A stretch of DNA of 64,000 bases from Planctomycetota bacterium (GTDB lineage Bacteria; Planctomycetota; Phycisphaerae; UBA1845; UTPLA1). Numbering within the stretch: position 1 is the stretch's first letter; each line of letters opens with the position of its first letter. The notes beneath the pieces were generated by a model, which saw only the letters and a program-made list of their open reading frames with translations, had not been told where the DNA came from and did no database searches. The stretch covers positions 1 to 64,000 of the forward strand of contig JAATGM010000055.1 of assembly GCA_015654675.1 (NCBI GenBank). Direction: 5' to 3'. This document shows, piece by piece, positions 19,607 to 51,898 of this stretch. The translations under genes were made by a program, and so were the position numbers.

Positions 19607-20140
19607 TCACATTTCCAGGAGGTCCATCGGAAGACAGACATCGGGCCGGCCGGCATACCACGACGCGGAGCTGTACCACCAGTCCTCCGGCTTCGCCACG
19701 AGTCCCTTTCGTGTCGGATTGTCGTGCAGGTAACGCAGCTTCTGTTCGAAGAGTGGTCTGGTGGAGATGGCATGCGGATGGAAGCCGTCCTGCCAGAGTG
19801 AGAATTGGCCTTGCTCGCTTCGAGCGGGTTGTGCAGCGCGTTCCAGCCATGCCAGTGTCGAGCTACGTCCGTCCGCGACCAATCGATCGTGGATGCTCCT
19901 CGATGTGAAGCGTTTGAAGTCGCGGATCAGCGCGTGCAAGTCCGGAGCGGCGGCGATGAGATGGATGTGATTGGGCATGACGACAAATGCGAAGAGTTGG
20001 AGTCCCTTCTTGTCGCGGCAGTAAGTCAAGGATTCGATGAGCGGGTCGATATAGCGGGCTTCGATGAAGATCGGCGTCCAGTCGAGGATTGTGATGGTGC
20101 AGAAATATGGGAGGTTTTCGTCCGCTCGATAGCGCGTCAT
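19607..20140 (-). mobile_element. REP-associated tyrosine transposase (RAYT, Y1/HUH family)
   Basis: The 177-aa protein begins MTRYRADENLPYFCTITI and has the HUH pair in VVMPNHIHLIAAAP near residue 63. The tail contains SLWQDGFHPHAI and LRYLHDNPTRKGLVAKPEDWWYSSA, typical of the IS200-like transposase_17 family. RAYTs are single-copy housekeeping-like transposases that mobilise or maintain REP palindromes rather than themselves. Palindromes with arms GTGCGAGAA/TTCTCGCAC lie on both sides, two of them within 140 nt of the start. An upstream in-frame Met at 20188 would add 16 residues. The catalytic Tyr is probably in the LRYLHDNP helix, not confirmed. Confidence 0.88.
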
Positions 20141-27935: not shown

Positions 27936-29276
27936 ATGAAAACGCTCATTTTGAGCGCCATTGCCGCGTTAAGCATCGCGGGGAGCGTGAGCGCCCAGAC
28001 AGCATTTACCTATCAGGGTCAACTGAAGCAGGCCGGCCAGCCATTTACCGGAACGGCCGACATGAACTTCAATCTGTTTGATTCGGCGACCGGGCCGGGT
28101 TCGATCGGGGACGAGACGCACAACGGTGTGCAGGTAACCAACGGCACGTTCACCGTGGACATCGGCGGCAGCGGGGCCGGGTGGGATCTGAATCTTGCGG
28201 GGGATCTCTGGCTCGAAATCACCGTCAACGGAACTGTCATGACGCCGCGACAGAAGCTCATGCCTACGCCGCATGCGCTGACTTCCGACACCCTGAAACT
28301 GCCGTTCGACTCGACATCGAACAATTTTTCCAGCGTTCCGACCTTTAAGGTGCAGACGCAGGGGACGGGCGGAGCGATCTGGGGCGAATCTTCCAATACG
28401 GGAGCGAATGGCGTCAACGGTTACAACGTGGCGACGAGCGGCGCGGCGAGTGGCGTGCGCGGTGTGTCGAATTCACCAAGCGGTTACGGGGTGGTCGGCG
28501 TCAATCAATCGACGTCGAATCAGGCCGTGGGTGGATACTTCGAGACGACTTCGAAGTCGGGTCTGGCCCTCTGGGGGCGCGTGAACGGCGGCGGGGCACA
28601 CACGGGCAGCTACGCGGGCAACTTTGAGAACACGGCCACGACCGGGTTGGCGATCGGCGTTCAGGGGTACTGCACGAGCAACAATAATGGCTTCGGCGTT
28701 CGCGGGTGGCACGCGGCGTCGGGCGGATTCGGCGCGGGCGTTCTGGGGCACAGCGACAGTCCGGCTGGTTACGGCGGGTATTTCGAGCACGGCTCGTCGA
28801 ACGGCGTCGCGCTCTACGTCCAGGGCAAGGCGCAAGTGAAAGTGCTTCAAATTCTGGGCGGGTCGGATCTGGCTGAGGGCTTCGACGTGAACGGCGAGGT
28901 CCGGCCGGGCATGGTCGTGTCGATTGATCCGTGCGACACGGGCAAGCTGGCTGCCTCGACGCAGGCGTATGACAAGAGAGTCGCGGGCGTCGTCAGCGGC
29001 GCGGGCGGGGTGAACGTCGGCATGGTGATGGGACAGGCGGGTTCGGTGGCCGACGGCAAGCACCCGGTGGCGCTGAGCGGTCGGGTTTACTGCTGGGCGG
29101 TCGGTGGGGCGGACGGTGTCGAGCCGGGAGACCTGCTCACGACATCGGCGGTGGCCGGACACGCGATGAAGGCGACGGACGGTGACGCGGCGCACGGCGC
29201 GACGATCGGCAAAGCGATGTCGTCGCTGAAGCCGGGTGAGACGGGACTGGTGCTCGTGCTGGTCAACCTCCAGTAA
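27936..29276 (+). CDS. Exported repeat-containing surface protein with 'EGFDV' C-terminal domain
   Basis: The 446-aa protein starts MKTLILSAIAALSIAGSVSAQ, a signal peptide. Residues 20-130 (FTYQGQLKQAGQPFTGTADM, WLEITVNGT) look like a beta domain also seen in planctomycete and bacteroidete exported proteins. The middle (about 145-300) has short Gly-rich repeats such as GVRGVSNSPSGYGVVGVN and GVLGHSDSPAGYGGYFEH, probably a beta-helical or parallel-repeat region. The C-terminus begins LGGSDLAEGFDVNGEVRPGM and contains VAGVVSGAGGVNVGMVMG, a conserved domain of unknown role. RBS GGGAGA is present. It is 28 nt upstream of the zincin gene, likely cotranscribed. Confidence 0.78.
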   Translation: MKTLILSAIAALSIAGSVSAQTAFTYQGQLKQAGQPFTGTADMNFNLFDSATGPGSIGDETHNGVQVTNGTFTVDIGGSGAGWDLNLAGDLWLEITVNGTVMTPRQKLMPTPHALTSDTLKLPFDSTSNNFSSVPTFKVQTQGTGGAIWGESSNTGANGVNGYNVATSGAASGVRGVSNSPSGYGVVGVNQSTSNQAVGGYFETTSKSGLALWGRVNGGGAHTGSYAGNFENTATTGLAIGVQGYCTSNNNGFGVRGWHAASGGFGAGVLGHSDSPAGYGGYFEHGSSNGVALYVQGKAQVKVLQILGGSDLAEGFDVNGEVRPGMVVSIDPCDTGKLAASTQAYDKRVAGVVSGAGGVNVGMVMGQAGSVADGKHPVALSGRVYCWAVGGADGVEPGDLLTTSAVAGHAMKATDGDAAHGATIGKAMSSLKPGETGLVLVLVNLQ

Positions 29277-29304
29277 GCCAGGGAAGGAAGCAAAGGAACG
29301 AAAT

Positions 29305-30798
29305 ATGAAGACTCGAATACTAGGATTGATTGCAATGATGGCAGTCGGCGCGACGACGGGTGTAAATGCCCAGAGTCCGGCGACCAGCGCGAAACGTGTT
29401 TTTCAGGCGATGGAGCATCCCACGGCGCGGAATCTGACTCTGCAAAAGGGCGAATCGAGCGTCACGGCGGTCGAGGTCGACCTGAAGTTGATCGGCGAGC
29501 TCGCGAAGGGCGACGCCATCGTTCTGAATCCGGTGGAGAATTATCAGGCGACCGGCATTGTTGATTCGGTCGAGCTGATTGCCGGGAACCGGGTGGTGAC
29601 AGGCCATCTGGAAGGCGTGCCATACAGCGCGTTCACGTTTGCGGTGGTGAACGGGATTGCGGCGGCGAGCATCGACACGGTCAATGAGGGGCGCTATCTG
29701 CTGCGGTTTTCACCGGAGCAGGTTCAAGTCGTGTCGAAGGTGGATTCGGCGTCGCTGCCGGACTGTGGCGTCGATCACACGGGCACGTCGGCGGCGCACC
29801 GATCGGCGGTTCCGCCCAAGGGGTACGTCTCCGATGCTGATTTCGCGGCGGCGGCTGACGCTCCCACGGCTCGGGCGGGTTGCGGGCGGCCGGATCCGGT
29901 TTATGACCTGATGGTTTTCTACACGCCGGCGGTGATCGCGGCGGCTGGATCGGAATCGGCGGTTCAGTCCACCATTCTCGTGACGTTTCCGTCAATCAAC
30001 GCGAGCTATACGAACAGCTTGATTCATACGAGCGCCCGGCTGGTCTACATGGGCTTCGTCAACTACAACGAGAACGGCACGTTTGAGGATCACCGGAATC
30101 GCTTTCAGGATTTTGACGATGGGACGATGGACGTCGTCAATCAGTTACGCGATCAGTACCAGGCGGACATCCTGACGCTGCTGGTGAACGACGATGACGG
30201 GGGCACGTTGTGCGGGATGGCGTATTGCGCCACGGACCAGGACCTGGGATTCTGCGTGGTGAACTATGGCTGCGCCCAGACGAGCATGAGCTGGCAGCAC
30301 GAGATCGGGCACTTGCAGGGCTGTGCGCACGATCCGGCGAATGCCGGGCCGTGCGGACTGCATGATAACTCGCGCGGTTATCTGCTGACGGACACGCTGG
30401 GTAATCGGGTTCGTACGATCATGGCGTACAACGCGGCCCCGGGTTATCAGCGGATCAACTGGTTCTCGAATCCGAACGTGATGCGAAACGGCTCGGCCAT
30501 GGGGACACAGGCGGAGTATTACAACGCGGCCACGGTCGAAGAGACTCGCTTCGAAGTGGAGCGCTTCCGGTCATCGCGCTTCGACATGTGGGTTCGGTTT
30601 GACTATGGCGGGCAGCAGACCGGCCTCTATGAAATGCCCTTCCAGACGCTTGGTGCGGCGCAGGGGTGGTGCTTCGACGCGCCGGCTTTGGCGATGCCGA
30701 CGGTGCACCTGCAGCCGGGAAATTCCACGGAGCGGCCGACACTTTCGAAACCCATGATCGTCGACTGCTGCGGTGGAATTGCGACCATCGGGCTCTAG
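29305..30798 (+). CDS. Exported zincin metalloprotease (HExxHxxxxxHD)
   Basis: The 497-aa protein starts MKTRILGLIAMMAVGATTGVN, a signal peptide. A propeptide-like region of about 170 residues precedes the catalytic domain, which starts near residue 190 (CGRPDPVYDLMVFYTPAVIA). His332, Glu333, His336 and His342 form HEIGHLQGCAHD, the extended zinc motif of metzincins, and IMAYN about 35 residues later probably supplies the Met-turn. The C-terminus (WVRFDYGGQQTGLYEMPF) is an additional beta domain. Many Cys suggest disulfides outside the cytosol. RBS AAGGAA lies before the ATG. Confidence 0.88.
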   Translation: MKTRILGLIAMMAVGATTGVNAQSPATSAKRVFQAMEHPTARNLTLQKGESSVTAVEVDLKLIGELAKGDAIVLNPVENYQATGIVDSVELIAGNRVVTGHLEGVPYSAFTFAVVNGIAAASIDTVNEGRYLLRFSPEQVQVVSKVDSASLPDCGVDHTGTSAAHRSAVPPKGYVSDADFAAAADAPTARAGCGRPDPVYDLMVFYTPAVIAAAGSESAVQSTILVTFPSINASYTNSLIHTSARLVYMGFVNYNENGTFEDHRNRFQDFDDGTMDVVNQLRDQYQADILTLLVNDDDGGTLCGMAYCATDQDLGFCVVNYGCAQTSMSWQHEIGHLQGCAHDPANAGPCGLHDNSRGYLLTDTLGNRVRTIMAYNAAPGYQRINWFSNPNVMRNGSAMGTQAEYYNAATVEETRFEVERFRSSRFDMWVRFDYGGQQTGLYEMPFQTLGAAQGWCFDAPALAMPTVHLQPGNSTERPTLSKPMIVDCCGGIATIGL

Positions 30799-35755: not shown

Positions 35756-36835
35756 ATGAAGGGGAATCAAGGCAAGTTTGATCGGAAGAGTCGCGTCCTC
35801 GGTTGGGTGGCCGTGTTGAGCACGGGCGTGGCGCTGGCCATGAGTGCTTCGGCCGCCTTTGGCCAGTCGGATTCGAGTGGCCGGCATTTCGCGTTGTGTG
35901 TCGGGATCAATCAGTATTCGATCTCCGGGGCGAACAACCTGCAAGGTTGCGTGAACGACGCAGAGGGCGTGGCGAACACGCTGATGCGAGACTCGCGCTG
36001 GTCGCAGCAGGACGTGTATCTGGTGACGGACACTCAGGCGACCAAGGCAGGCGTTCGCGGCGCGCTTTATCAGCTCGGATCAGAGGCGGGGCCGGGCGAC
36101 GTTGTCTTGTATTTCCAGTCGAGCCACGGAAGCCAGCAATCGGGTACTGACACGTCGCTGGTGATGACAGATGAAATGTACTCGGATGCCGAGTTGGGAT
36201 CGGATCTGGCGCAGGCATTCAACGAGCAGACGACGGTGATCCTGGTGATCGACGCGTGCCACTCGGGCGGATTGTTCCGGTCGGGTCCGCAGACGCGGGC
36301 GCAGCGGGCGGCGGCGAATGCGAGCTTCGTGCAGAACGTGTTGACTGCGATGCAAGCGACACGGCAGGCGCGGGGTGGGGCGGCGCGGAGTCGCTCGGTC
36401 GGCAGCCACGTTGGATTCATTACAGCGGCCGACTACAACCAGTTTTCGCAGGAGACCAACGGGATGGGTGTGTTTGCCCGAAACTTCATCGCGGCGTTCG
36501 CGGAGCGGAACGCGGATACGAACAGCGATGGTCTGATGAGTTTCTGGGAACTGGGGACGTGGGCGGGCGAGAAGGCCAGTGCGGAAAACCCTGACCAGAC
36601 GGCCCAGATGTTCAACGACACGCTCCTGAACGAGACGATAGCGTCGGACCTGCAGACGTCCGAGAGCGGCGGATTTGAGTCGGGCTCGGAGGGTGGCGCG
36701 GGTGGCGGGTTTGATCCGGGCATGGCGTCGGCCGGGACGTGCGGTGCGATGGGATTGAACGGGCCGCTGATGGCTGGGCTGAGTCTGGTTGGCGCGGCGT
36801 TCGCCCGAACGCGAGTTCGAATTCGACGCAGCTGA
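35756..36835 (+). CDS. Secreted caspase-like (peptidase C14) protein with C-terminal anchor
   Basis: The 359-aa protein has a signal peptide (about 14-36). A caspase p20-like domain follows, with HFALCVGINQYSISGANNLQ, the catalytic His124 in FQSSHGSQ and Cys168 in VIDACHSGGL. After about 270 a Gly/Ser-rich stretch leads to CGAMGLNGPLMAGLSLVGAA and ARTRVRIRRS, a Cys-hydrophobic-Arg tail that looks like a CTERM-type sorting signal. Its substrate is unknown; many bacterial C14 proteins cleave after Arg or Lys. GGGAG lies 10 nt upstream of the ATG. It is convergent to top6B, with a shared hairpin terminator. Confidence 0.88.
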   Translation: MKGNQGKFDRKSRVLGWVAVLSTGVALAMSASAAFGQSDSSGRHFALCVGINQYSISGANNLQGCVNDAEGVANTLMRDSRWSQQDVYLVTDTQATKAGVRGALYQLGSEAGPGDVVLYFQSSHGSQQSGTDTSLVMTDEMYSDAELGSDLAQAFNEQTTVILVIDACHSGGLFRSGPQTRAQRAAANASFVQNVLTAMQATRQARGGAARSRSVGSHVGFITAADYNQFSQETNGMGVFARNFIAAFAERNADTNSDGLMSFWELGTWAGEKASAENPDQTAQMFNDTLLNETIASDLQTSESGGFESGSEGGAGGGFDPGMASAGTCGAMGLNGPLMAGLSLVGAAFARTRVRIRRS

Positions 36836-42797: not shown

Positions 42798-42963
42798 TAT
42801 TGGCGAATTTATCCGGGGCTCGACGTGACAGGGGTGGTTGGACGCCTCGTTTCCAGGGCGCGTGGCGATCGCAGTTGCTGTGCGGCGTGGGGCGGCGCTG
42901 GTGGTTTATGGCTTTATTGAGTGGCCGGTCCGCAGAGATCGAGAATACGGGGTTTTCGATTGT
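42798..42963. other. Intergenic region before the AT-rich palindrome
   Basis: About 165 nt between the repeat and the palindrome with no gene or recognisable site. Together with neighbours it is part of a non-coding stretch of nearly 1 kb, unusually long for this window. Confidence 0.4.
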
Positions 42964-43022
42964 CTGAATTTCAGAATTACTGAATTTCAGTAATTCTGAA
43001 AATCGGTAATTCTGAAATTCAG
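42964..43022. repeat. AT-rich palindromic element, copy 1
   Basis: Perfect 17-bp inverted repeat: CTGAATTTCAGAATTAC (42964-42980) with GTAATTCTGAAATTCAG (43006-43022). The 25-nt centre repeats the same words again. It is AT-rich in a GC-rich sequence. A related element lies at 44125-44183, so the two bracket the 43317-43958 gene. Confidence 0.75.
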
Positions 43023-43143
43023 AGGATTGGATCGCGGCGAGGCCCGGGGGGATGCGACGGGCTCGGGCGGTGCGTTGGGTGGACTTGGTGCGGGGCGAGT
43101 GCTGGGAGCGGGTTGCTGGGAGCGAGGGTTAGGGACCGGGTGC

Positions 43144-43316: not shown

Positions 43317-43958
43317 CTACGGCGACGGTTTTGAGACGTCGAACGCCCGGGCGAGCGCTTTCGTCCGTCCTTCTTTAGTCCACCAGTTCTTCACGTCGTC
43401 GACGCTCGTCTTTTGAATGACCATGCGTTGACCCAGCATCGTGGTCGTTTTTCCTGTGTCCCTGGTTGCTCCAATATCGACTTTGCACGTCTTTTTCAGA
43501 AATGAGGCGAGCGCCGACGCCATGTTGTCGGCTGTGTATTTATTTTCTTCGCGCATCAGAGCCTCGCCCAACTCCAGTACGATCGCTGACTCGCGAACCG
43601 GACCTGGGAATGGTCTCTTTTCAGAAAGGATAATCGCAGCTTTGGACCGCGCATTCGCATCTTCATCGAACTGAACGACGGTCAATAGAAGTGGGACGTA
43701 CCGGCAATCTGAGGCGGCGGCGGCGCCAATAGTCGAGAGCATGTTGTGGCGCTGCTCGGGCTTCCGAAGTCCGAGGTACGTTTGCGTTACGGTCTCTTCA
43801 CTCTGATCCCTGATCTTCGACCCAAGCTCATTTACGCGAGCCATTCGAGCCGTGCCCTTGAGCGGTTCGAGGTCGTTCATCGCCTTTACAAAGTCCGATG
43901 CCTGAACCCGGCCGTCGAGCCAGCCACCCATCATTGCGCAGAGCAGGATTGCGATCAT
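43317..43958 (-). CDS. Exported protein of unknown function
   Basis: From the ATG at 43958 the product is 213 aa; AAGGAG lies before it. The start MIAILLCAMMGGWLDGRVQA is a signal peptide. The mature part is mostly helical and resembles HEAT-like repeats in style (LSTIGAAAASDCRYVPLLLT, ARSKAAIILSEKRPFPGPVR), ending in VDDVKNWWTKEGRTKALARA. I do not recognise the family. It has a clear TACAAT promoter with a leader of about 30 nt, a terminator, and lies between two AT-rich palindromes, unlike its neighbours. Confidence 0.72.
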   Translation of the reverse strand: MIAILLCAMMGGWLDGRVQASDFVKAMNDLEPLKGTARMARVNELGSKIRDQSEETVTQTYLGLRKPEQRHNMLSTIGAAAASDCRYVPLLLTVVQFDEDANARSKAAIILSEKRPFPGPVRESAIVLELGEALMREENKYTADNMASALASFLKKTCKVDIGATRDTGKTTTMLGQRMVIQKTSVDDVKNWWTKEGRTKALARAFDVSKPSP

Positions 43959-43989
43959 TGTTCGACTCCTTGGCGGTTTGTCATCGCGG

Positions 43990-43995
43990 ATTGTA
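43990..43995 (-). promoter_or_regulatory. -10 box TACAAT of the 43317-43958 gene
   Basis: CGCGTTACAATCC on the minus strand, 31 nt upstream of the ATG at 43958. Here an RBS (AAGGAG) follows, so this copy of the promoter word drives a leadered message. Confidence 0.55.
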
Positions 43996-44124
43996 ACGCG
44001 GGGGGCCGCCAGGGCGACCCCCAGACTGGCACCGCCGGTTTGGATCTCGTCGTTGGGGTTCTGCATTCGAGAATTGTTAGTTGCTTCCGCTGAACGGCGG
44101 GTGTGGCGGATTTCAGAACATCTG

Positions 44125-44183
44125 ATTTTCTGAATTACTGAATTTCAGGAATTCAGATATTCAGTAATTCTGAAATTCAGAGA
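44125..44183. repeat. AT-rich palindromic element, copy 2
   Basis: Related to 42964-43022. Perfect arms GAATTACTGAAT (44132-44143) and ATTCAGTAATTC (44159-44170), with further CTGAATTTCAG and CTGAAATTCAG on either side in altered order. Confidence 0.65.
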
Positions 44184-44321
44184 ATTGGGTTTTGGCGGGT
44201 TTGGGGGAGTGGGTGGCGATCAGGCTGTGTGTTGTGTATGGATCTGACGCGAGCTGGGTGGGGCATGGCCTTTGGCGTTTGGGCTGGCGCGAGGGTTGGG
44301 TGCGCGGAGGATTCGGGGCGT

Positions 44322-44402
44322 TCACTCTGGTTGCGCGTCGCGCGCCAGGCCTTGCGCCGCCGGCTCGGATTTGGGGGTTGGGGTTCCGCATTCGGGGCAT
44401 TC
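44322..44402 (-). pseudogene. Decayed tail of a tenth zinc-ribbon paralogue
   Basis: Minus-strand codons from 44402 read ECPECGTPTPKSEPAA then QGLARDAQPE and a TGA at 44324-44322. This is the conserved C-terminal CPECG half-ribbon of the neighbouring gene family with no upstream CxxC half and a different frame from the 44411-45748 gene that abuts it. The flank (44229-44280) also matches the intergenic repeat found next to the 46535 and 50464 genes. It is probably what is left after a deletion or recombination between array members. Confidence 0.65.
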
Positions 44403-44410
44403 CAACCGAT

Positions 44411-45748
44411 TCAACTGCCGGATTGTCCGGCTTTATTCGCCGGCGGTACCTGTGGTAACGGATTGACTCGAATGTTGTCGAAAATCACGTTCCCGTCGTA
44501 CATCTCCATGACATCCGTCGTCGCGCGCGCTTGTCTCCGACTGGATTCAAATGTGACGCTAACCAGATCCCCTTCGGCGGGGGGAAAGGGAACGGTGCAC
44601 CCTCCAGTCAGCCCGCTGTCGGTCGGGCGAAGCACCCGTGTCATAGTGTGCAAGACACGCCTTTTGGAGTCCCGCATCGTGAATTTGCCGCAGAGGATTC
44701 CTCGCCGATTACCGCGCCATCGAATCGAAGTCCATATCTCTGCTTCCTTTCCGGGAGCACTAGGTTTCTCCAAGAAAGCCCGCACTTCAAGATCGTCACG
44801 AAGCGCAGACGCCAAGAGTTTTTGCGTTTTCACTGAATCCGAGGCGTGTGGGCCAAGTACGTGACACTCGCCGTTGCAGGCAACATTTCGCTCGACGAGC
44901 TGGATTGTGCCTGCAAACACCATGACTTTCAGATCGAGCTCAATGGCGTGGGAGCCAACCGAGAGCCAGTTGAGTGGCACCTCCAGCGATCCCTCCGACC
45001 AACCAGACGCTCTTATCCAAGTGCTCTCGATGATTTTCTGAGAAAATGGAGCTACCTCCCTGCCGTCGATCTTGAGGCGTTCGGCGATGACTTCGTATCG
45101 AAGGAAGGTCCCAGACGGAGTTCTCAGCGAGCAGGTAACTACGATTGGAACCGTGTCGCCCTGGCGGACTAATGGGCGAACGGCGAGCGATGGCCGGACG
45201 AGTTGCCGATAGACTCTGTCGGTTTGGTCCGGCGGCACCAACCGCCGCGACCGCAATAGTTCAAACAAATCGAGTGATTGCTGATCGAGTCTTCGAATGT
45301 CCGAATCCTCAGCAAGCGTTATAACGGATTGCGCAATCAATTGGGCGTCGGCTCGCGATAGTCGGTTGGTAGAGCAGCGTTCTGTCAATACAGCTTTGGC
45401 GTTAGCGTTGCCGAAGAGCGCAGGTCGAGCAAGAAGCGAAGTTGGCAGGCAGCGATACCAAGTAATGCCGTGGGACCAATGGAGCCAAGAATCGGAAATC
45501 AGTCCGGCCCCAAGCATCAAGAGGGGAACGCCGGATGCCAATCGAGACAGTTTGCGATGTCGTTGGCCGACGCACTGCGCTGATTCGCTCAAGTCGACGC
45601 CGCATTCGGGGCATTCTTTTGATTCGACTCCGGTGAGGTTGTAGTTGCATTTTCGGCAGCGGGGTTCCTGGCCGATTCGGCGGCCGATGAGGCCCCGCGT
45701 CAGGAGGGCTGCGCCCGTGAGCAGGAGTGTGATTGCCGCGATGAGCAT
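44411..45748 (-). CDS. Membrane protein with N-terminal zinc ribbon, array member 1
   Basis: The 445-aa protein has a first helix (3-23), then a zinc ribbon at residues 31-51 (CRKCNYNLTG, CPECG), then a second helix (about 72-90, ASGVPLLMLGAGLISDSWLH). A long soluble part of about 340 residues follows, with beta-rich segments such as GDTVPIVVTCSLRTPSGTF and GDLVSVTFESSRRQ. It is the outlier of the array: the ribbon is N-terminal and the extracytoplasmic domain is much larger. Function unknown; the ribbon's YNLTG...CPECG core makes it a family member. AGGGCTCCTC precedes the ATG. Confidence 0.75.
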   Translation of the reverse strand: MLIAAITLLLTGAALLTRGLIGRRIGQEPRCRKCNYNLTGVESKECPECGVDLSESAQCVGQRHRKLSRLASGVPLLMLGAGLISDSWLHWSHGITWYRCLPTSLLARPALFGNANAKAVLTERCSTNRLSRADAQLIAQSVITLAEDSDIRRLDQQSLDLFELLRSRRLVPPDQTDRVYRQLVRPSLAVRPLVRQGDTVPIVVTCSLRTPSGTFLRYEVIAERLKIDGREVAPFSQKIIESTWIRASGWSEGSLEVPLNWLSVGSHAIELDLKVMVFAGTIQLVERNVACNGECHVLGPHASDSVKTQKLLASALRDDLEVRAFLEKPSAPGKEAEIWTSIRWRGNRRGILCGKFTMRDSKRRVLHTMTRVLRPTDSGLTGGCTVPFPPAEGDLVSVTFESSRRQARATTDVMEMYDGNVIFDNIRVNPLPQVPPANKAGQSGS

Positions 45749-45772
45749 GAGGAGCCCTGGTTGGGCTGCATT

Positions 45773-46429
45773 CTATCGAAAGTCGTCGGGGCTTGTGGCG
45801 GCGTTGACTTGTTCTGGCACGCGATGTTGGCCGGCGCTGGCGCTACGGGTTCGGACATTGGGGGCAGGCTCTGGAGCGGCCGGTTCGGGTTTGGGGGTTG
45901 GGGTTCCGCATTCGGGGCATTTTCCGGATTGGTTTCCGGTCATGTTGTAGTGGCAGTTGGGGCAGTGGCCTTCGGTTGGGCGGCGGCGGTCGCGGTACCA
46001 GAGCCAGACGGTGGGGATCGTCACCAAGAGGAAGGGGAGCCAGAGGGGAATTCGTACTCGGAGTTGAGAAATGGTTCCCCAAATTTTCTGCCGGTGCCAG
46101 ACCGGCAGTACCAAGCCGAGGTCGGTCCGACCGAACGCGGGCCGGATGCGATAGAATTGCCATCCTTCGGTTCTTCGCACGTTTTCAAGACCGAGGTGAT
46201 AGATCGACTCTGAGCGTCCCTGGCGGAGGTATTCCTCGACCTTTCCAGACGGGTCGTCCAGGCACCCGACGAAATGTGCGCACCCGGCGACGAATTGGCA
46301 AGATTCACAGGGATTAGATTGGTACCCCATTTTCATGTACACGCACGTCAGCCATAGAGTGGCGAGCAGCACCGATGCAGAAGCTCCGATCCATTTCGAA
46401 AAACTGCGAAGGCGGGGGTGGGTGCGCAT
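45773..46429 (-). CDS. Two-helix membrane protein with C-terminal zinc ribbon, array member 2
   Basis: The 218-aa protein has an N-terminal basic patch (MRTHPRLRSF), helix 1 (12-32), a variable region (33-125, with Cys-rich CESCQFVAGCAHFVGC), helix 2 (126-146, PLWLPFLLVTIPTVWLWY) and a cytosolic ribbon with Cys156, 159, 171 and 174 (CPNCHYNMTGN, CPECGTP). The predicted topology is N-in, C-in with the variable part outside. Members 2, 6 and 9 share the helix-2 sequence PLWLPF/RRRP and form a subgroup. Its ATG is 6 nt from a TACAAT box, with no RBS, suggesting a leaderless message. Function unknown. Confidence 0.78.
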   Translation of the reverse strand: MRTHPRLRSFSKWIGASASVLLATLWLTCVYMKMGYQSNPCESCQFVAGCAHFVGCLDDPSGKVEEYLRQGRSESIYHLGLENVRRTEGWQFYRIRPAFGRTDLGLVLPVWHRQKIWGTISQLRVRIPLWLPFLLVTIPTVWLWYRDRRRPTEGHCPNCHYNMTGNQSGKCPECGTPTPKPEPAAPEPAPNVRTRSASAGQHRVPEQVNAATSPDDFR

Positions 46430-46435
46430 GGTTGG

Positions 46436-46441
46436 ATTGTA
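46436..46441 (-). promoter_or_regulatory. TACAAT box, array member 2
   Basis: TACAAT on the minus strand, 6 nt upstream of the ATG at 46429, in the context GCGTTACAATCC. The same 6-nt gap occurs for members 4, 6, 8 and 9. Confidence 0.5.
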
Positions 46442-46467
46442 ACGCGCGGGGGCGGGGTGGTTTGGCG

Positions 46468-46650
46468 GGCCCTTTCAGGACTCAGGCATTGGGTGCGATG
46501 TGGACCCAGGGCGTTGCCCTGGGCTGGGTCTGGGTCACGCCTTTGGCGTTTGGGATGGAATGGCCGGTTCGGAGTTGGAAGTTGGGGTTCCGCATTCGGG
46601 GCATTTGTTGGATTCGTTTCCTGTCAAGTTGTAGTTGCACCTAATGCAGT
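46468..46650. repeat. Type II repeat, copy 1 (intergenic part plus ribbon 3' end)
   Basis: Nearly identical to 50398-50583, including CAGGGCGTTGCCCTG (a palindrome), CACGCCTTTGGCGTT and the last 120 nt of the adjacent gene. It covers the 3' end of member 3 and the region downstream of it. Confidence 0.8.
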
Positions 46651-47116
46651 GGCCGACTCGGATGCGCCGCGATTTCAGCCAATGAACTGTGCGCTGGGAC
46701 AGTTGCCATGCCGGGAAGCCCGTGGCGGCGATGAGCAGAACCATCGGAATCCAGAGTGGGATGATCACGGTGTCGATACGACGAGTGTCTCCAAACACCG
46801 AGCTAGTCCAGTTTGTCGATGACACTCTCGGAATCAGGCACTGGATGCCAACCGGCTCGGGGATCGGGATTTCTTCGTCTCCTACCTTCATAGGCTCGCC
46901 CGGTGTTCGCGGCGGCATCGGCTTGATCTTGGGCCAGCGCTGGGCGATGAATCCACCGTCGAGTACGCGCAACCGCCAAGGGTCGTGCCAGTAATTCACG
47001 AGGTTGGCATTAGTGCTTCCTATCCAAATGGACGCCAGAGCGATAATCGCCCCCGACCCGAGAATGGCGAGAGAGTCAGGGACAACGCGTCGGCGCAATA
47101 CTGATGCCTCAGGCAT
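46535..47116 (-). CDS. Two-helix membrane protein with C-terminal zinc ribbon, array member 3
   Basis: The 193-aa protein has helix 1 (13-32), a variable part (33-115, Pro-rich KPMPPRTPGEPMK), helix 2 (117-136, IIPLWIPMVLLIAATGF) and a ribbon with Cys157, 160, 172 and 175 (CIRCNYNLTGNESNKCPECG). The last 37 residues are identical to those of member 8, whereas the rest of the two proteins is unrelated, which points to 3'-end transfer between them. No TACAAT box at the standard gap is present; the leader has GTGAGGTTTTTCAATC. Function unknown. Confidence 0.76.
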   Translation of the reverse strand: MPEASVLRRRVVPDSLAILGSGAIIALASIWIGSTNANLVNYWHDPWRLRVLDGGFIAQRWPKIKPMPPRTPGEPMKVGDEEIPIPEPVGIQCLIPRVSSTNWTSSVFGDTRRIDTVIIPLWIPMVLLIAATGFPAWQLSQRTVHWLKSRRIRVGHCIRCNYNLTGNESNKCPECGTPTSNSEPAIPSQTPKA

Positions 47117-47217
47117 GATTGAAAAACCTCACGGTTCGTTTTCGAGGGCCGGAGGGTGACTTCGACTGCGTGTAACAATTCTTGAGCGTTGGGACAGTGG
47201 CGACATGGAGACAAACA

Positions 47218-47811
47218 TCATCCGTTTTGATCAGAATGGTCAAGTCGCGGCGGCGCACTCGTAGTCCTGGTTTGTTCGATCGTAGGAGGCGTCGATTTCA
47301 GGGGCAACGGGTTCTTTACTGAGGGGGTTCCGCATTCGGGGCATTTTCCTGAGACGTTGCAAGTCATGTTGTAGTTGCAGTTGGGGCAGAACAGTGCTGT
47401 CCATCCTGCTGTACGGCGGTGAGCGGCGCGAACTCGCCAGGCTGCGAGCAATATGAGCGCCGATGCGAGGCCAATTGGCCAGAGGGGCAGGAAGTATGTT
47501 CCGTTTGGAAACCAGCCGATGGAGCTGAAGGAAGGGAAACCATAGGGGGCACGGGGCCGTTGCCACTCCACGGACGATGCGTATTCGGGCTTGGCCATCG
47601 CGCATAGTCCGGATTGGAACGTGCCGCTTCCAATGTAGAAGTAGCGGCCGCGGCCGCCTTCCCAATTCTGATTCGCGATGGGGGGCTCGACTGGTCGCCA
47701 GTAGGCGACGCGAAGGCCGAGCATGGTGAGTGTCCATATGACGAAGGCGAGAGCGCACAACGTGATCGCCGACCAGATGGCGATGCGGCGGCTTAGGGAA
47801 GCGGTGCGCAT
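47218..47811 (-). CDS. Two-helix membrane protein with C-terminal zinc ribbon, array member 4
   Basis: The 197-aa protein has a basic start (MRTASLSRR), helix 1 (9-33), a variable part (34-105, with GGRGRYFYIGSGTFQSGLC), helix 2 (106-126, FLPLWPIGLASALILLAAW) and a ribbon with Cys142, 145, 157 and 160 (CPNCNYNMTCNVSGKCPECG). In the second position of the loop, CNV replaces GNV. A Pro/Thr-rich tail follows that is longer than in other members. A TACAAT box lies 6 nt before the ATG. Function unknown. Confidence 0.77.
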   Translation of the reverse strand: MRTASLSRRIAIWSAITLCALAFVIWTLTMLGLRVAYWRPVEPPIANQNWEGGRGRYFYIGSGTFQSGLCAMAKPEYASSVEWQRPRAPYGFPSFSSIGWFPNGTYFLPLWPIGLASALILLAAWRVRAAHRRTAGWTALFCPNCNYNMTCNVSGKCPECGTPSVKNPLPLKSTPPTIEQTRTTSAPPRLDHSDQNG

Positions 47812-48137
47812 GGTTAGATTGTAACGCGCGGGGGTGGTGGCTCGCGTTTGGACGTTTTCGACGGCTGGGTATTGGGGCTTCCTCCGCCCCTGCCGGGGCG
47901 GGAAAAGTTTGGGGGCCGGGGTCCACGGGTTGCGCGCGGCCTTCGCGGCCGCGCTTCACCGCGTGGCTACAGTCCGTCGCCCCGTTGGGGCGAATTGGGC
48001 TGGCGCAGCGGTTGAGTCCTCGGGTGATGCGGATTGTTCAATGTGGTTGTGGGTGGCTCGCCGCTTACTTACGTGCGCGGCTCTGAATTGGCGGCGGGTG
48101 GTTCGGGTTTGGGGGTTGGGGTTCCGCATTCGGGGCA
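47812..48137. repeat. Type I repeat, copy A (intergenic unit plus ribbon 3' end)
   Basis: Contains the gene-start TACAAT box, a palindrome CCGCCCC/GGGGCGG (about 47884-47901), the words TTCACCGCGTGGCTACAG and a palindrome TCGCCCC-GTT-GGGGCGA (47977-47993), then GGATTGTTCAATGTGGTTG and the 3' end of member 5. Copies B and C are at 49331-49665 and 51091-51412, and a partial copy at about 48690-48790. Confidence 0.82.
47818..47823 (-). promoter_or_regulatory. TACAAT box, array member 4
   Basis: TACAAT 6 nt upstream of the ATG at 47811, context GCGTTACAATC, minus strand. Confidence 0.5.
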
Positions 48138-48644
48138 GGTGCCGGTCACATTACCTGATAGATCATATCGACACGTACGGCAACACTGTTCTGGGATGAT
48201 ACGGCCAGCCCGCCAACAGCAGATCGGAAGTGCTACCACAATTATTGCACCCAGTTCCCAGACGGGAAAAGATAGATAAAGCAGGCCGAGCGATCGATGT
48301 GTATGTATTTCCGGCGGGCTCCATAGCTCGGCAGCGGACTGAATCGGCTCAATTGAGAATCGCAGACTGCTGGGATACGAACCGATCAGCGATTTATTGA
48401 TCGCGATCTCTGGTTTTGTGCATCGCAAGAGAAATACGCGCCCCTTCTCCAAGGCAACAAAGGTCCAGGGCGATCGCAGAGTTGAGGAGACGGAAACCCC
48501 CAGAGTTCCGATTGCCGTGAGGCCGCTGCTGACTGCGACGATCAATGCCAGACGACTGCACACTCGTCGTATCCCGGGCCACGATTGACTGGAAAAGCAC
48601 CGCATTGCGATTCGATCTAATTTGTCCCGAACGTGTTGACTCAT
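48069..48644 (-). CDS. Membrane protein with C-terminal zinc ribbon, array member 5
   Basis: The 191-aa protein has helix 1 (30-52, RLALIVAVSSGLTAIGTLGV), a variable part (55-120), helix 2 (121-143, LSFPVWELGAIIVVALPICC) and a diverged ribbon with Cys155, 158, 170 and 173 (CRTCRYDLSGNVTGTCPECG). The tail KPEPPAANSEPRT resembles members 2 and 9. The start ATG lies in the stop codon of member 6 (ATGA overlap), so it is translationally coupled to it, unlike the other members. Function unknown. Confidence 0.74.
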   Translation of the reverse strand: MSQHVRDKLDRIAMRCFSSQSWPGIRRVCSRLALIVAVSSGLTAIGTLGVSVSSTLRSPWTFVALEKGRVFLLRCTKPEIAINKSLIGSYPSSLRFSIEPIQSAAELWSPPEIHTHRSLGLLYLSFPVWELGAIIVVALPICCWRAGRIIPEQCCRTCRYDLSGNVTGTCPECGTPTPKPEPPAANSEPRT

Positions 48645-49330
48645 GGGCGGCCAGACGCGGATTCGTAATCCACAGACTGCGCGCGGCCCGGGCGGATACG
48701 CTTCACCGCTTCGCTACAGTCCGAGGCCCCGTTGGGGCTCGTTCCAATTGATGCAGATGTCGGGGTTCCGCATTCGGGACATTTGTTGGATTCGTTTCCT
48801 GTCAGGTTGTATCCGCACGATTGGCAGTGGCCTGCCGGTGGGCGGCGGTGGTTTTTGTACCAGAGGAGGGCAGTGGGGAGCGCGAAGATGAGGAATGGAA
48901 GCCAAAGCGGGAGCGTCATATTGTATGTGGTGAGGAATGCTTTGGCTGGAGGAGGGGCGCGGCCCGTGAACAGCTTGTACACCAGTTTTTCGATTATGTC
49001 CGGCGGCGGCGTGTGTGTGGTTTGACGGACGGTGGGCCACGCGAATCCGAATGATGACAGTTGAATGGGCGAGCCCGTGAGGCGGGTGCTGGACCATTTG
49101 GCCGGAAAGCGCTGAAAGATCCCCGGGTAGACGTCATCGCGCATGATGTCCGCACCGATTCGGCCGCTACTCAGTTCGAGATGAACGAAGTAGCGATCGA
49201 GGCAAGCGCGTTGCAAGCAAAACCGGCCATGGCTGGGCGGAATGGATGCCAACCAAGCGAGAAGAATTACGAGCGACGTTTGAAGTCCGGCCCATCGTGT
49301 GATTCGGCGGAATCGGGAGCGGGTGCGCAT
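48641..49330 (-). CDS. Two-helix membrane protein with C-terminal zinc ribbon, array member 6
   Basis: The 229-aa protein starts MRTRSRFRRITRW, followed by helix 1 (13-31), a variable part (32-138), helix 2 (139-158, LPLWLPFLIFALPTALLWY) and a ribbon with Cys169, 172, 184 and 187 (CQSCGYNLTGNESNKCPECG). The tail is unusually long (SIGTSPNGASDCSEAVKRIR...) because the usual stop is lost in a partial copy of the type I repeat, and it then reaches the ATG of member 5. A TACAAT box lies 6 nt before the ATG. Function unknown. Confidence 0.76.
   Translation of the reverse strand: MRTRSRFRRITRWAGLQTSLVILLAWLASIPPSHGRFCLQRACLDRYFVHLELSSGRIGADIMRDDVYPGIFQRFPAKWSSTRLTGSPIQLSSFGFAWPTVRQTTHTPPPDIIEKLVYKLFTGRAPPPAKAFLTTYNMTLPLWLPFLIFALPTALLWYKNHRRPPAGHCQSCGYNLTGNESNKCPECGTPTSASIGTSPNGASDCSEAVKRIRPGRAQSVDYESASGRP
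48690..48790. repeat. Type I repeat, partial copy
   Basis: CTTCACCGCTTCGCTACAG and GGCCCCGTTGGGGCTC (48702-48741) match the core of the type I repeat. It lies inside the 3' coding end of member 6, which reads through it and so gains an altered C-terminus. Confidence 0.65.
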
Positions 49331-49665
49331 GTTTGGATTGTATCGTGACAGCGGACGGAGCGTGTTCGAACGTCATCGATAGGCGTCGAGGTCTCCTCCG
49401 CCCCGGCCGGGGCGGGGTGGCTCGGCGATTCGGAGTCCACGGGTTGCGCGCGGGCGTTCCTTTCCACGGGTTTCGCTGCGCTTCACCGCGTGGCTACAGT
49501 CCTTCGCCCCGTTGGGGCGAATTGGGTTGGCGCAGCGGTTGGGCGCTCGGGGGATGCGGATTGTTCAATGTGGTTGGGTGTTGCGCGCCGCTTAGTTACC
49601 TGCGCGGCTCTGAATCGGGGCGGCCGGTTCGGAGTTGGGGGTTGGGGTTCCGCATTCGGGGCATT
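49331..49665. repeat. Type I repeat, copy B
   Basis: Contains TACAAT (49337-49342), CCGCCCC/GGGGCGG, two CCACGGGTT words, TTCACCGCGTGGCTACAG, TCGCCCC-GTT-GGGGCGA and GGATTGTTCAATGTGGTTG, then the 3' end of member 7. Nearly identical to copy C over 49478-49640. Confidence 0.85.
49337..49342 (-). promoter_or_regulatory. TACAAT box, array member 6
   Basis: TACAAT 6 nt upstream of the ATG at 49330 in the context CACGATACAATCC, minus strand. Confidence 0.5.
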
Positions 49666-50305
49666 TGTTGGATTGGTTGCCGGTGAGGTTGTAGTTGCAT
49701 TCGATGCACCGGCCATTGCCGATGCGCTGCCAATGTCGTCGCCGACTGAGCACTAGAGACCGCGTGATTAGTCCGGCTGCAAGCAGCAGCATCGCAGCGA
49801 CGAAGTAGAGGTTCACGATCATCGCTGACGGAGGTCTCGAAGCGCTGAACGTGGTTCCTGGCGATTTCGACAAGATGGGTTGCGGCACGAGCGCCAGCGG
49901 AACTGGGCTTAACGAGGTGCACGCGAGAAGTTCGTTTATTGACGGCTCACCGCTCGGAGGGTTTTCGAAAATGACCGAACCATCGGGATCAACGACATAC
50001 CTGGGACGCGATCGTTTCTGAAATGCCTCGGCGCGTGATAACACGAGGGCTGAGTCATTGAGAAGCAGGACGCGCCCGACGCCGACTACAACCCAATAGT
50101 GTGTTCGTGGTATCGCGAGGTAGAGAGGTCGCCCGACTACCGCCGGGTAGATGACGATTGTCAGAGCAATGAGCACGAATATGCCGACCGAGCAGTGACC
50201 GAATAGTTTGCGCGGTGGGCCGGAAATTTGCCGATTGCCGGCAGGCCGGCTCAGGACGGCGGATTCCTTTGCTGCAATCAGCGTCATGTTACTTGAATCG
50301 GGCAT
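49592..50305 (-). CDS. Membrane protein with C-terminal zinc ribbon, array member 7
   Basis: The 237-aa protein has helix 1 (40-62, VGIFVLIALTIVIYPAVVG), a variable part (63-160), helix 2 (163-184, IVNLYFVAAMLLLAAGLITR) and a ribbon with Cys200, 203, 215 and 218 (CIECNYNLTGNQSNKCPECG). The final SEPAAPIQSRAGN is identical to member 9. The N-terminal 35 residues are polar and unlike other members. Fifty nt upstream a TACAAT-N6-ATGCGCACC start exists in another frame and stops after 24 codons, so the original start was probably lost by a frameshift. Function unknown. Confidence 0.72.
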   Translation of the reverse strand: MPDSSNMTLIAAKESAVLSRPAGNRQISGPPRKLFGHCSVGIFVLIALTIVIYPAVVGRPLYLAIPRTHYWVVVGVGRVLLLNDSALVLSRAEAFQKRSRPRYVVDPDGSVIFENPPSGEPSINELLACTSLSPVPLALVPQPILSKSPGTTFSASRPPSAMIVNLYFVAAMLLLAAGLITRSLVLSRRRHWQRIGNGRCIECNYNLTGNQSNKCPECGTPTPNSEPAAPIQSRAGN

Positions 50306-50364
50306 ACTCGAGTTTTGTTTGAACTGCTGATCTCGAGAGTTCGGGTTTGGGTGCGCATCGATCG

Positions 50365-50370
50365 ATTGTA
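50365..50370 (-). promoter_or_regulatory. TACAAT box upstream of array member 7
   Basis: TACAAT 6 nt upstream of the ATG at 50358, which opens only a 24-codon frame (50284-50358). Member 7 itself starts at 50305 in another frame, so the box would give it a leader of about 53 nt. Confidence 0.45.
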
Positions 50371-50397
50371 TCGCGCGCGAGCGGGGTGGGTTGGGGC

Positions 50398-50583
50398 GCC
50401 CTTTCAGGGCTCAGGGATTGGGTGTGATGCGGACCCAGGGCGTTGCCCTGGGCTGGGTCTGGGTCACGCCTTTGGCGTTTGGGATGGAATGGCCGGTTCG
50501 GAGTTGGAAGTTGGGGTTCCGCATTCGGGGCATTTGTTGGATTCGTTTCCTGTCAAGTTGTAATTGCACCTAATGCAGTGGCC
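50398..50583. repeat. Type II repeat, copy 2
   Basis: Nearly identical to 46468-46650: CAGGGCGTTGCCCTG, CACGCCTTTGGCGTT, GGAATGGCCGGTTCGGAG and the ribbon-coding 3' end of the adjacent gene. Confidence 0.8.
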
Positions 50584-51090
50584 GGGTGGGTGGATCCGGC
50601 GGAAGCGTCGCAGGCAGAACGCGGCGCCGAGCGTAGCGGCGGCAACCAGGTACCAGGTGGGGAAGATGAGTGTGTGGGTCGTTACGCGACCCATGTGTAG
50701 TTCGAAGAGATTTCCATCAGGGGCCTTGATCAGTTTGAGTAGCGCGGGGCTCTCCACTGTCGCGATGTGCGGCGACCAGAGGAATGCGCGCACCGGCCTC
50801 CAGACGTCCGGGGCGAAGTGGGTCATGCGATTCTCGAGAAGATAGAACAGGTCGAGTCGATCAAGCCACAGGCCGGGCTTGTTCGATTGTCGATCTGAAG
50901 CAGGGACGTCCCGATCGAAATCGCACCAACGGAGGGCGAGGTTGCCGCTGTCGAGGGTGAGCATTCGACATGTCGGCCAAACGTAGTCGATGTGCCAATG
51001 AAAGGTGGACCACCAGGCGCCGGCGAGCAGGAGAACAATCCCGATGGCAGTCCATCTTGCGGTGCTCCGGAGCAGGTTTTGCGTGCGCAT
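50464..51090 (-). CDS. Two-helix membrane protein with C-terminal zinc ribbon, array member 8
   Basis: The 208-aa protein starts at ATG 51090 (MRTQNLLRSTARW). It has helix 1 (12-30, AIGIVLLLAGAWW), a variable part (31-140, with LDSGNLALRWCDFDRDVP), helix 2 (about 142-162, FPTWYLVAAATLGAAFCL) and a ribbon with CIRCNYNLTG and CPECG (Cys172, 175, 187, 190). The C-terminal 37 residues equal those of member 3. TACAAT lies 6 nt before the ATG, which is why I prefer 51090 over the upstream in-frame start. Function unknown. Confidence 0.77.
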   Translation of the reverse strand: MRTQNLLRSTARWTAIGIVLLLAGAWWSTFHWHIDYVWPTCRMLTLDSGNLALRWCDFDRDVPASDRQSNKPGLWLDRLDLFYLLENRMTHFAPDVWRPVRAFLWSPHIATVESPALLKLIKAPDGNLFELHMGRVTTHTLIFPTWYLVAAATLGAAFCLRRFRRIHPPGHCIRCNYNLTGNESNKCPECGTPTSNSEPAIPSQTPKA

Positions 51091-51412
51091 GGCGGAATTG
51101 TAACGCGCGTGGGCTGAAGGGCTCACGTTCAGACGTTTTCAACGGGAGTGTATTGGGACTTCCTCCGACCCTGCCGGGGCGGGAGAGCCTCGGGGGCTGA
51201 GTTCCACGGGTTTCGCTGCGCTTCACCGCGTGGCTACAGTCCTTCGCCCCGTTGGGGCGAATTGGGCTGGCGCAGCGATTGGGTGCTCGGGGGATGCGGA
51301 TTGTTCAACGTGGTTGGGTGTTGCGCGCCGCTTAGTTACCTGCGCGGCTCTGAATCGGGGCGGCCGGCTCGGATTTGGGGGTTGGGGTTCCGCATTCGGG
51401 GCATTTGTTGGA
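51091..51412. repeat. Type I repeat, copy C
   Basis: Contains TACAAT (51097-51102), ACGTTTTCAACGG, a CCGACCC/GGGGCGG half palindrome, TTCACCGCGTGGCTACAG, TCGCCCC-GTT-GGGGCGA and GGATTGTTCAACGTGGTTG, then the 3' end of member 9. Confidence 0.85.
51097..51102 (-). promoter_or_regulatory. TACAAT box, array member 8
   Basis: TACAAT 6 nt upstream of the ATG at 51090, context GCGTTACAATT, minus strand. Confidence 0.5.
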
Positions 51413-51886
51413 GACATTGCCGGTCATGTTGTAGTTGCAGTTAGGGCAGTGGCCTTCGGTTGGGCGGCGGCGGTTGTGGCGCCAGAGTAGGGCGGCGGGA
51501 ATCGCTAGGGCCGCCATCGGCACCCAGAATGGAAATGAGCTATGAACGAGCTTTGCCTGCGTCCCGGGTACGAGGAATTGCAGGAGTGGGATGGAAGAGG
51601 TTTCGTAGCGCGGGAGGATGAAGCCATAGTTAAACGGATCCGAGCCCCAGGCTTGATTCGGGATGACATGCACCTTCCAGCCGCAAAGACTTGGATCGAT
51701 CGGCGTCGGACCCAGACCGATGGCGTATTTCGTATAAACCTGGCCGGAGACGATTTCCATTCGGAAGGTGACGCCCTCGTACTCGGCGTAGTAGCGAATC
51801 GATAGCAGCCAGGCGATGGCGAACAAGGTGAGGAGCAAAGTGAGAGACCAAATGAGTACGCGGCGGGGCCTGGAGCGGGTGCGCAT
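51332..51886 (-). CDS. Two-helix membrane protein with C-terminal zinc ribbon, array member 9
   Basis: The 184-aa protein starts MRTRSRPRRVLIW. It has helix 1 (10-30, LIWSLTLLLTLFAIAWLL), a variable part (31-116), helix 2 (118-136, FPFWVPMAALAIPAALLW) and a ribbon with Cys147, 150, 162 and 165 (CPNCNYNMTGNVSNKCPECG). It is the shortest and perhaps the most typical member. The tail SEPAAPIQSRAGN is identical to member 7. TACAAT lies 6 nt before the ATG. As first gene on the right, it begins the array; the nearest upstream gene on the same strand, the PafA-like phosphatase, ends about 190 nt away. Function unknown. Confidence 0.78.
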   Translation of the reverse strand: MRTRSRPRRVLIWSLTLLLTLFAIAWLLSIRYYAEYEGVTFRMEIVSGQVYTKYAIGLGPTPIDPSLCGWKVHVIPNQAWGSDPFNYGFILPRYETSSIPLLQFLVPGTQAKLVHSSFPFWVPMAALAIPAALLWRHNRRRPTEGHCPNCNYNMTGNVSNKCPECGTPTPKSEPAAPIQSRAGN

Positions 51887-51892
51887 TGGTGG

Positions 51893-51898
51893 ATTGTA
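51893..51898 (-). promoter_or_regulatory. TACAAT box, array member 9
   Basis: TACAAT 6 nt upstream of the ATG at 51886, context GCGATACAATCC, minus strand. Confidence 0.5.

Follow-up and report, generated by a model that had tools for sequence, protein, structure and literature searches.

Constant DNA around variable parts, with recombination between the copies, is known from the pilin silent cassettes, vlsE, and Rhs tips, and expanded paralogue families have reportedly been described in planctomycetes, by Mahajan in 2020. Here we describe an array of small membrane protein genes in a 64-kb stretch of DNA from a Planctomycetota bacterium of the class Phycisphaerae (contig JAATGM010000055.1, positions 1 to 64,000; hereafter the window), which carries nine consecutive genes with CxxC...CPECG ribbons at 44411-51886 on the minus strand. 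The array probably represents an undescribed Phycisphaerae family of small membrane proteins with two helices that has expanded locally, and in which the outer parts share a fold and the constant ends are exchanged between copies.

Eight of the nine genes, g1 to g8 (45773-51886, minus strand), encode proteins of one layout, with a basic N-terminus, a first transmembrane helix (TM1), an outer part, a second transmembrane helix (TM2), an Arg-rich stretch, and a C-terminal four-cysteine (Cys4) ribbon. They are g1 (51332-51886, 184 residues), g2 (50464-51090, 208 residues), g3 (49592-50305, with an altered N-terminus), g4 (48641-49330, 229 residues), g5 (48069-48644, 191 residues, overlapping g4 by 4 nucleotides), g6 (47218-47811, 197 residues), g7 (46535-47116, 193 residues), and g8 (45773-46429, 218 residues). 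The order TM1, outer part, TM2, and C-terminal C-x2-C...CPECG, which we call class A, is found in g1 to g8, g3 being class A-like, and is absent from g9. An earlier note on this DNA had counted nine ribbon paralogues of one layout; this holds for g1-g8 but not for g9 (44411-45748, minus strand, 445 residues), a class B protein in which the ribbon occupies residues about 31-53 of 445, close to the N-terminus, and is followed by a long outer part, and which belongs with its paralogues at G000:C60 and G000:C18, elsewhere in the same genome, to a distinct paralogue set. Class B genes are clustered at these two places (C60:49.9-54.5 kb and C18:157-163.7 kb). The topology proposed for the array proteins, with a short basic N-terminus, two helices, the outer part outside, and the ribbon inside, agrees with the sequences and the models, and the decayed tail reported beside the array is indeed present behind its last gene, as a ribbon remnant (CPECGTPTPKSEPAA...) at 44338-44402 on the minus strand. 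A weaker second remnant (73%) lies at 44026-44076, also on the minus strand, where the next gene (43317-44066) begins. Nine copies of the 20-mer that encodes the CPECGTP end are present in the window, eight of them exact and one carrying one mismatch, versus 0.02 expected, and all nine lie inside the array stretch, in g1-g8 and in the decayed tail (44380-44399).

DNA matches within the array span the ribbon and the 3' flank, and often run on into the start of the next gene. The ribbon end and 3' flank of g1 (51202-51439) are 95.0% identical over 238 nucleotides to those of g3 (49462-49699), and the stretch from the g2 ribbon to a ghost start before g3 (50342-50584) is 93.4% identical over 243 nucleotides to that from the g7 ribbon to the g8 start (46413-46655), all on the minus strand. 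The g1-to-g2 DNA matches the g5-to-g6 DNA (81.4% over 354 nucleotides), and the block from the g6 ribbon to the g7 ribbon (46584-47389, minus strand, 806 nucleotides) is 87.6% identical to a stretch (L031:9155-9933) of a second array of five genes, located at a contig end of the same genome (C45:247.2-250.8 kb). By comparison, no DNA match was obtained at an expect value (E) of 1e-5 between the outer parts of g1 and g3 or of g2 and g7. The 3' flank is also present downstream of a ribbon gene with a different architecture at C50 (L035 2562-2829, 84%). The ribbon and 3' flank had been described as nearly invariant: the ribbon ends are alike, but the flank is not constant overall, being common only within two sets, g1/g3/g5 and g2/g7, with the flanks of g6 and g8 short and different. 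At the contig end after the second array (C45:250907, end of L031) and at the start of another contig (C46:1, start of L032) lie ribbon genes that share one C-terminal tail, so that the assembly was probably interrupted within a repeated array.

Evidence for exchange also comes from g7. Its 66-nucleotide ribbon differs from that of g2 at 1 position and from that of the second-array copy (L031:9401-9973), whose outer part is a close copy of that of g7, at 11 positions, as plain difference counts, whereas the 120 nucleotides before the ribbon differ from the second-array copy at 4 positions and from g2 at 81. The g7 gene is therefore a clear chimera, its closest match switching exactly at the ribbon, which indicates that the constant ends recombine independently of the outer parts. 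In the other blocks the exact crossover is not placeable, because the ribbons are alike in all copies. In line with exchange inside genomes, the nearest neighbour of the TM2-ribbon segment came from the same genome in 38 of 96 cases, compared with 26 of 96 for TM1 and 20 of 96 for the outer part (mean about 5 and maximum 14 with shuffled labels); for the own-genome proteins, the figures were 16, 6, and 9 of 21, respectively. Cases with a same-genome neighbour by the ribbon only outnumbered those by the outer part only by 23 to 5, and those by TM1 only by 18 to 6. Taken together, these results show recombination at constant ends around variable parts, as in a cassette-exchange locus. The ribbon, the 3' flank, and the start of the next gene thus behave as recombining linkers common to the genes of one genome, with different outer cassettes between them. 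Cassettes may be gained, lost, and re-paired when such linkers undergo unequal crossing-over or gene conversion.

The outer parts were compared with those of relatives. Among seven window genes, g3 excluded, outer-part identity is 16-32% over all 21 pairs, and the parts had been taken as completely divergent and unrelated. From 215 ribbon frames, 126 proteins of relatives and 23 of the own genome were kept (g3 did not pass the filter and was included manually), and 113 of the 126, with outer lengths of 40-115 residues, were used for the outer-part profile. In the relatives' outer part, a Gly is kept in 106 of 112 sequences and a Pro in 94 of 104, and Trp and further Gly positions recur. When this profile was anchored by leaving TM1, TM2, and the ribbon intact, the real outer interiors of 22 own-genome proteins outscored shuffled ones, with a mean z of 2.7; among 500 shuffles each, the real score was reached by 1, 0, 21, 15, 0, 28, 0, and 7 for g1 to g8, respectively. 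The set of 22 thus matches the relatives' profile beyond composition. Two own-genome proteins with 29-residue outer parts, left out of the anchored test, gave no signal in a version in which the whole outer part was shuffled. We conclude that the outer parts, taken as a set, are strongly diverged homologues, which can be aligned with an anchored profile, clearly for the set and weakly for single genes; unrelated outer parts are rejected on the anchored tests. AlphaFold2 returned the same succession of helix, six strands, helix, and ribbon for g1 (mean predicted local distance difference test score, pLDDT, 83.9) and for a homologue from locus L083 (86.1). With scaffold positions in common and the same predicted fold in the two modelled members, g1 and the L083 relative, the outer parts appear to share one fold.

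The family extends well beyond this locus. In its own genome, a ribbon query found 95 places at E ≤ 1 and 70 at E ≤ 0.001, with several protein architectures in the part of those loci inspected, and it had matches in 41 of the 41 genomes of a sample of the order, own genome included, at 2-78 places each; the 40 relatives searched belong to other genera. A profile of 67 proteins (A4), drawn from a set of 88 (profile A3) made up of g1 and 87 proteins from fetched genome loci, matched 38 of the 41 genomes, with a maximum of 63 places in one genome, and was found in 31 of the 33 of good quality. In an even sample of the phylum, it matched 12 of 195 genomes at E 1e-10, all from one class, the own genome and 11 others. 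Scoring covered no more than 94 candidates per genome in the order sample with A4 and no more than 19 in the phylum sample, and these counts are lower bounds. Most genomes sampled from the order carry the family in multiple copies, and it is common in Phycisphaerae. At least 575 candidate stretches were present in a named collection, 488 of which encode relatives; of 80 kept stretches, 74 are labelled as Phycisphaerae or other Planctomycetota and six as other phyla, and these six labels may reflect mis-assigned metagenome-assembled genomes. Class A genes were present in 22 of 30 fetched regions, as tandem sets of two to five genes (same strand, ribbons within about 1.5 kb) in 13 and as single or spread copies in 9, frequencies that are biased because the regions were picked for hits or for the phosphodiesterase mentioned below, and two of them overlap (L175 and L179). 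Homologues thus do occur singly, but tandem sets exist too. Of 20 relatives, 6 encode a homologue of the phosphodiesterase that lies next to the array, and in one of these six (G007) two family genes lie nearby, indicating that the array is not generally syntenic.

The starts of several array genes also resemble each other. TACAAT, a -10-like hexamer, lies six bases 5' of the ATG of g1 (51887-51898, minus strand), and with the same spacing before g2 (51091-51102), g4 (49331-49342), g6 (47812-47823), g8 (46430-46441), and the ghost start preceding g3 (50359-50370), all on the minus strand, an arrangement absent before g5 and g7. The ghost start (ATGCGCACC at 50358) lies 53 nucleotides before the present start of g3, out of frame, and the shared start region makes it likely that g2 starts at 51090 and not at 51126. 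The pattern TA[CT]AAT-N5..8-ATG occurs at nine sites in the window, seven of them at or just beyond the array (the seventh at 43984), versus 0.6 expected for the whole window (20 base shuffles). Another 12 sites are found in 166 kb of other loci of the own genome, six of which open into ribbon frames, one of them inside a gene. This arrangement suggests that the array genes may be transcribed without leaders.

Several observations weigh against an expanded family with one outer fold and exchanged ends. Taken singly, g3, g4, and g6 give marginal results in the anchored test, and two of the 22 proteins, both outside the window, show no signal (L031_p1_2610, 111 of 500 shuffles; L033_p2_1091, 106 of 500), nor are the 22 independent, since one is a near copy of g7. 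The unanchored, outer-only profile is weak, with g5 the only one of the eight window genes to beat every shuffle. Parts of the AlphaFold2 outer domain have a pLDDT of about 58-71, and the two models are not independent because their alignments overlap. Structure libraries returned no clear match, either with Foldseek for the L083 relative (no row with E ≤ 0.001) or with VIA-align, whose best rows, at Z 5.8 for the L083 model (9r68_I, root mean square deviation 7.2, 75 aligned) and Z 6.5 for g1 (8es4_A, root mean square deviation 5.1, 64 aligned), are at the level of common arrangements. The neighbour contrast between ribbon and outer part may be partly noise, because the outer signal is noisy (median relative score 0.07), and the contrast between ribbon and TM1 is smaller. 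Genes with the full layout are fewer than the A4 matches, because many matches cover only the TM2-ribbon half. Finally, the PADLOC defence models gave 0 matches for the nine array proteins at E 0.1, rows for phage families in PHROGs were weak (E 0.04-0.1 only), and no recurring family was seen among 29 scanned proteins, out of 53 listed flanking ones, together with the window phosphodiesterase.

Two other accounts of the constant ends have to be considered. The array could have arisen by ordinary birth and death, that is, by tandem duplication with relaxation of the outer part and a ribbon kept by selection on the protein, without exchange. Ribbon residues are conserved across relatives, gene remnants are present, and in the closest pair, g7 and the second-array copy, the nonsynonymous rate of the outer part is not far below the synonymous one (dN 0.109, dS 0.158, on 28 changes), as this account would have it. 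However, in pairs without a DNA match between their outer parts, the noncoding 3' flanks reach the same similarity as the ribbon (93-95%), which selection on the protein cannot explain, and the closest match of g7 switches exactly at the ribbon, so that we hold birth and death without exchange to be unlikely. The shared flanks might instead be copies of a dispersed palindromic repeat, similar to repetitive extragenic palindromes (REP) and perhaps moved by an IS200-like element, with the ribbon ends as passengers. Indeed, the 3' flank has matches at 13 places in the own genome, and four of the 13 are short (48-63 bp) and, judging from where they lie, do not directly follow a ribbon match, indicating that a dispersed palindromic repeat makes up part of the flank. 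The TTCGCCCCAACGGGGCGAA palindrome is present in the flanks of g1, g3, and g5 (with one mismatch in g5), and has 10 copies genome-wide at ≤2 mismatches, versus 0 for the reversed control. An IS200-like (Y1_Tnp) protein encoded near 19.6 kb of the window (about 19607-20140, minus strand; 27.7 bits for a cut-off of 23) is a possible REP-associated transposase in this genome with dispersed palindromes. Yet the shared blocks start inside or at the ribbon, several of them reach the next start codon, past the palindrome, the g2/g7 flank is a different one, and the 806-nucleotide block from g6 to g7 is mainly coding, so a mobile repeat also has little chance of being the source of the constant ends. 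Folding of five 3' flanks gave z values of -0.4 to -3.2, and a search for structured RNAs in Rfam returned four rows, all under the gathering scores. A/T-rich direct and inverted repeats of the GAATTTCAGAATT type lie between g9 and the next gene (44107-44192) and at 42959-43023, and similar copies are found at L036, L041, and L049.

The divergence of the outer parts might in turn reflect diversifying selection, as in antigen or kin-recognition loci. The array L173 of genome G034 has the profile expected in that case, with 73-82% identity in TM1, 74-84% in the ribbon, and 20-26% in the outer part. A survey of pairs within arrays, covering 93 pairs at 18 chosen loci (duplicates included, since the L123 array is that of L174), yielded three distinct pairs with an outer identity ≥40%, all of them with dN below dS (L174 5222/7618, 0.65/0.76; L147 2536/3159, 0.31/1.50; L081 3141/3654, 0.59/1.02). 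With the g7 pair, dN is lower than dS in four alignable pairs, which are few, and positive selection on the variable parts, proposed as a check in the earlier note, was not seen in them. We regard diversifying selection as improbable, and favour an expanded family whose constant ends are exchanged.

No model in Pfam, NCBIfam, PHROGs, or PADLOC covers the family, and no paper on it was found by title or opening of the abstract, so that the claim of the earlier note that no described system fits holds within the libraries searched. Passages of PMC8567305, in which Mahajan 2020 is cited, deal with kinases, sigma factors, BamB, gyrase, and others, and that text contains 0 occurrences of 'zinc' and 'Phycisphaer'. 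A profile search of the PDB sequences returned rows of zinc-finger or ribbon type on the ribbon, and weak rows for cytochrome oxidase (E 0.03 and 0.95). From its Cys pattern, the Cys4 ribbon presumably binds zinc. Two candidate assignments were rejected: a viral origin, as a pattern-based scan of viral contigs contained no g4 relative and PHROGs gave only rows at E 0.04-0.1, and a role in defence, for lack of a PADLOC match. Elsewhere in the window, a caspase-domain protein (Peptidase_C14, E 1.6e-17) is encoded at 35756-36835 and an M12-type metallopeptidase (Reprolysin_5, E 2.3e-16) at 29236-30798, both on the plus strand; another caspase-domain gene (L193:5851-7563) lies upstream of a ribbon pair.

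By the positive-inside rule, both termini would lie in the cytosol and the outer domain outside the inner membrane. Given this topology and the single ribbon type that serves many outer parts, the set could tentatively be viewed as envelope sensors or scaffolds; as the least secure step, the outer domains might be in contact with distinct ligands or partners in the envelope, with the ribbon docking on one cytosolic partner common to all. A bolder and rather doubtful extension is a receptor repertoire built by recombination, in which the linkers (ribbon end, 3' flank, promoter-like TACAAT box, and start codon) would be the crossover seams, and cassettes could be gained, lost, and re-paired by the cell while all of them keep their link, via the ribbon, to a single cytosolic partner. 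The family amounts to membrane proteins in several to tens of copies in most sampled genomes of the order, unnamed in the curated libraries searched. As a concrete case from bacteria, it has a conserved cytosolic module that moves, together with its noncoding flank, between paralogues independently of the outer domain. Annotation, we guess, probably leaves its genes as unrelated hypothetical proteins, because their outer parts align only with anchored profiles.

How, then, does the array compare with known systems? Its ribbon resembles those of DZR (PF12773), DUF7129 (PF23455), and the HVO_2753 family (NF041909), with two Cys pairs, a short spacer, and a CPxCG knuckle, but all these matches remain under the curated cut-offs (best 17.1 bits for a gathering cut-off of 27.3 with DZR, and 21.2 bits for a cut-off of 80 with HVO_2753) and concern the ribbon only, without the helices or the outer domain. 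The claudin-type fold also has a beta sheet between TM1 and TM2 and conserved Trp and Gly; by contrast, a Cys4 ribbon follows TM2 in the present family, and a relation is not demonstrated, the claudin rows for the L083 relative being weak (Foldseek E 0.29-1.9, probability ≤0.33; VIA-align Z about 3). In the pilin silent cassettes, vlsE, and Rhs tips, as in the array, constant ends enclose variable middles; unlike there, each array copy appears to be a gene in its own right, and no division into an expression site and a silent store was seen. With the planctomycete families attributed to Mahajan in 2020, finally, the array has in common a lineage-specific expansion of paralogues in Planctomycetota.

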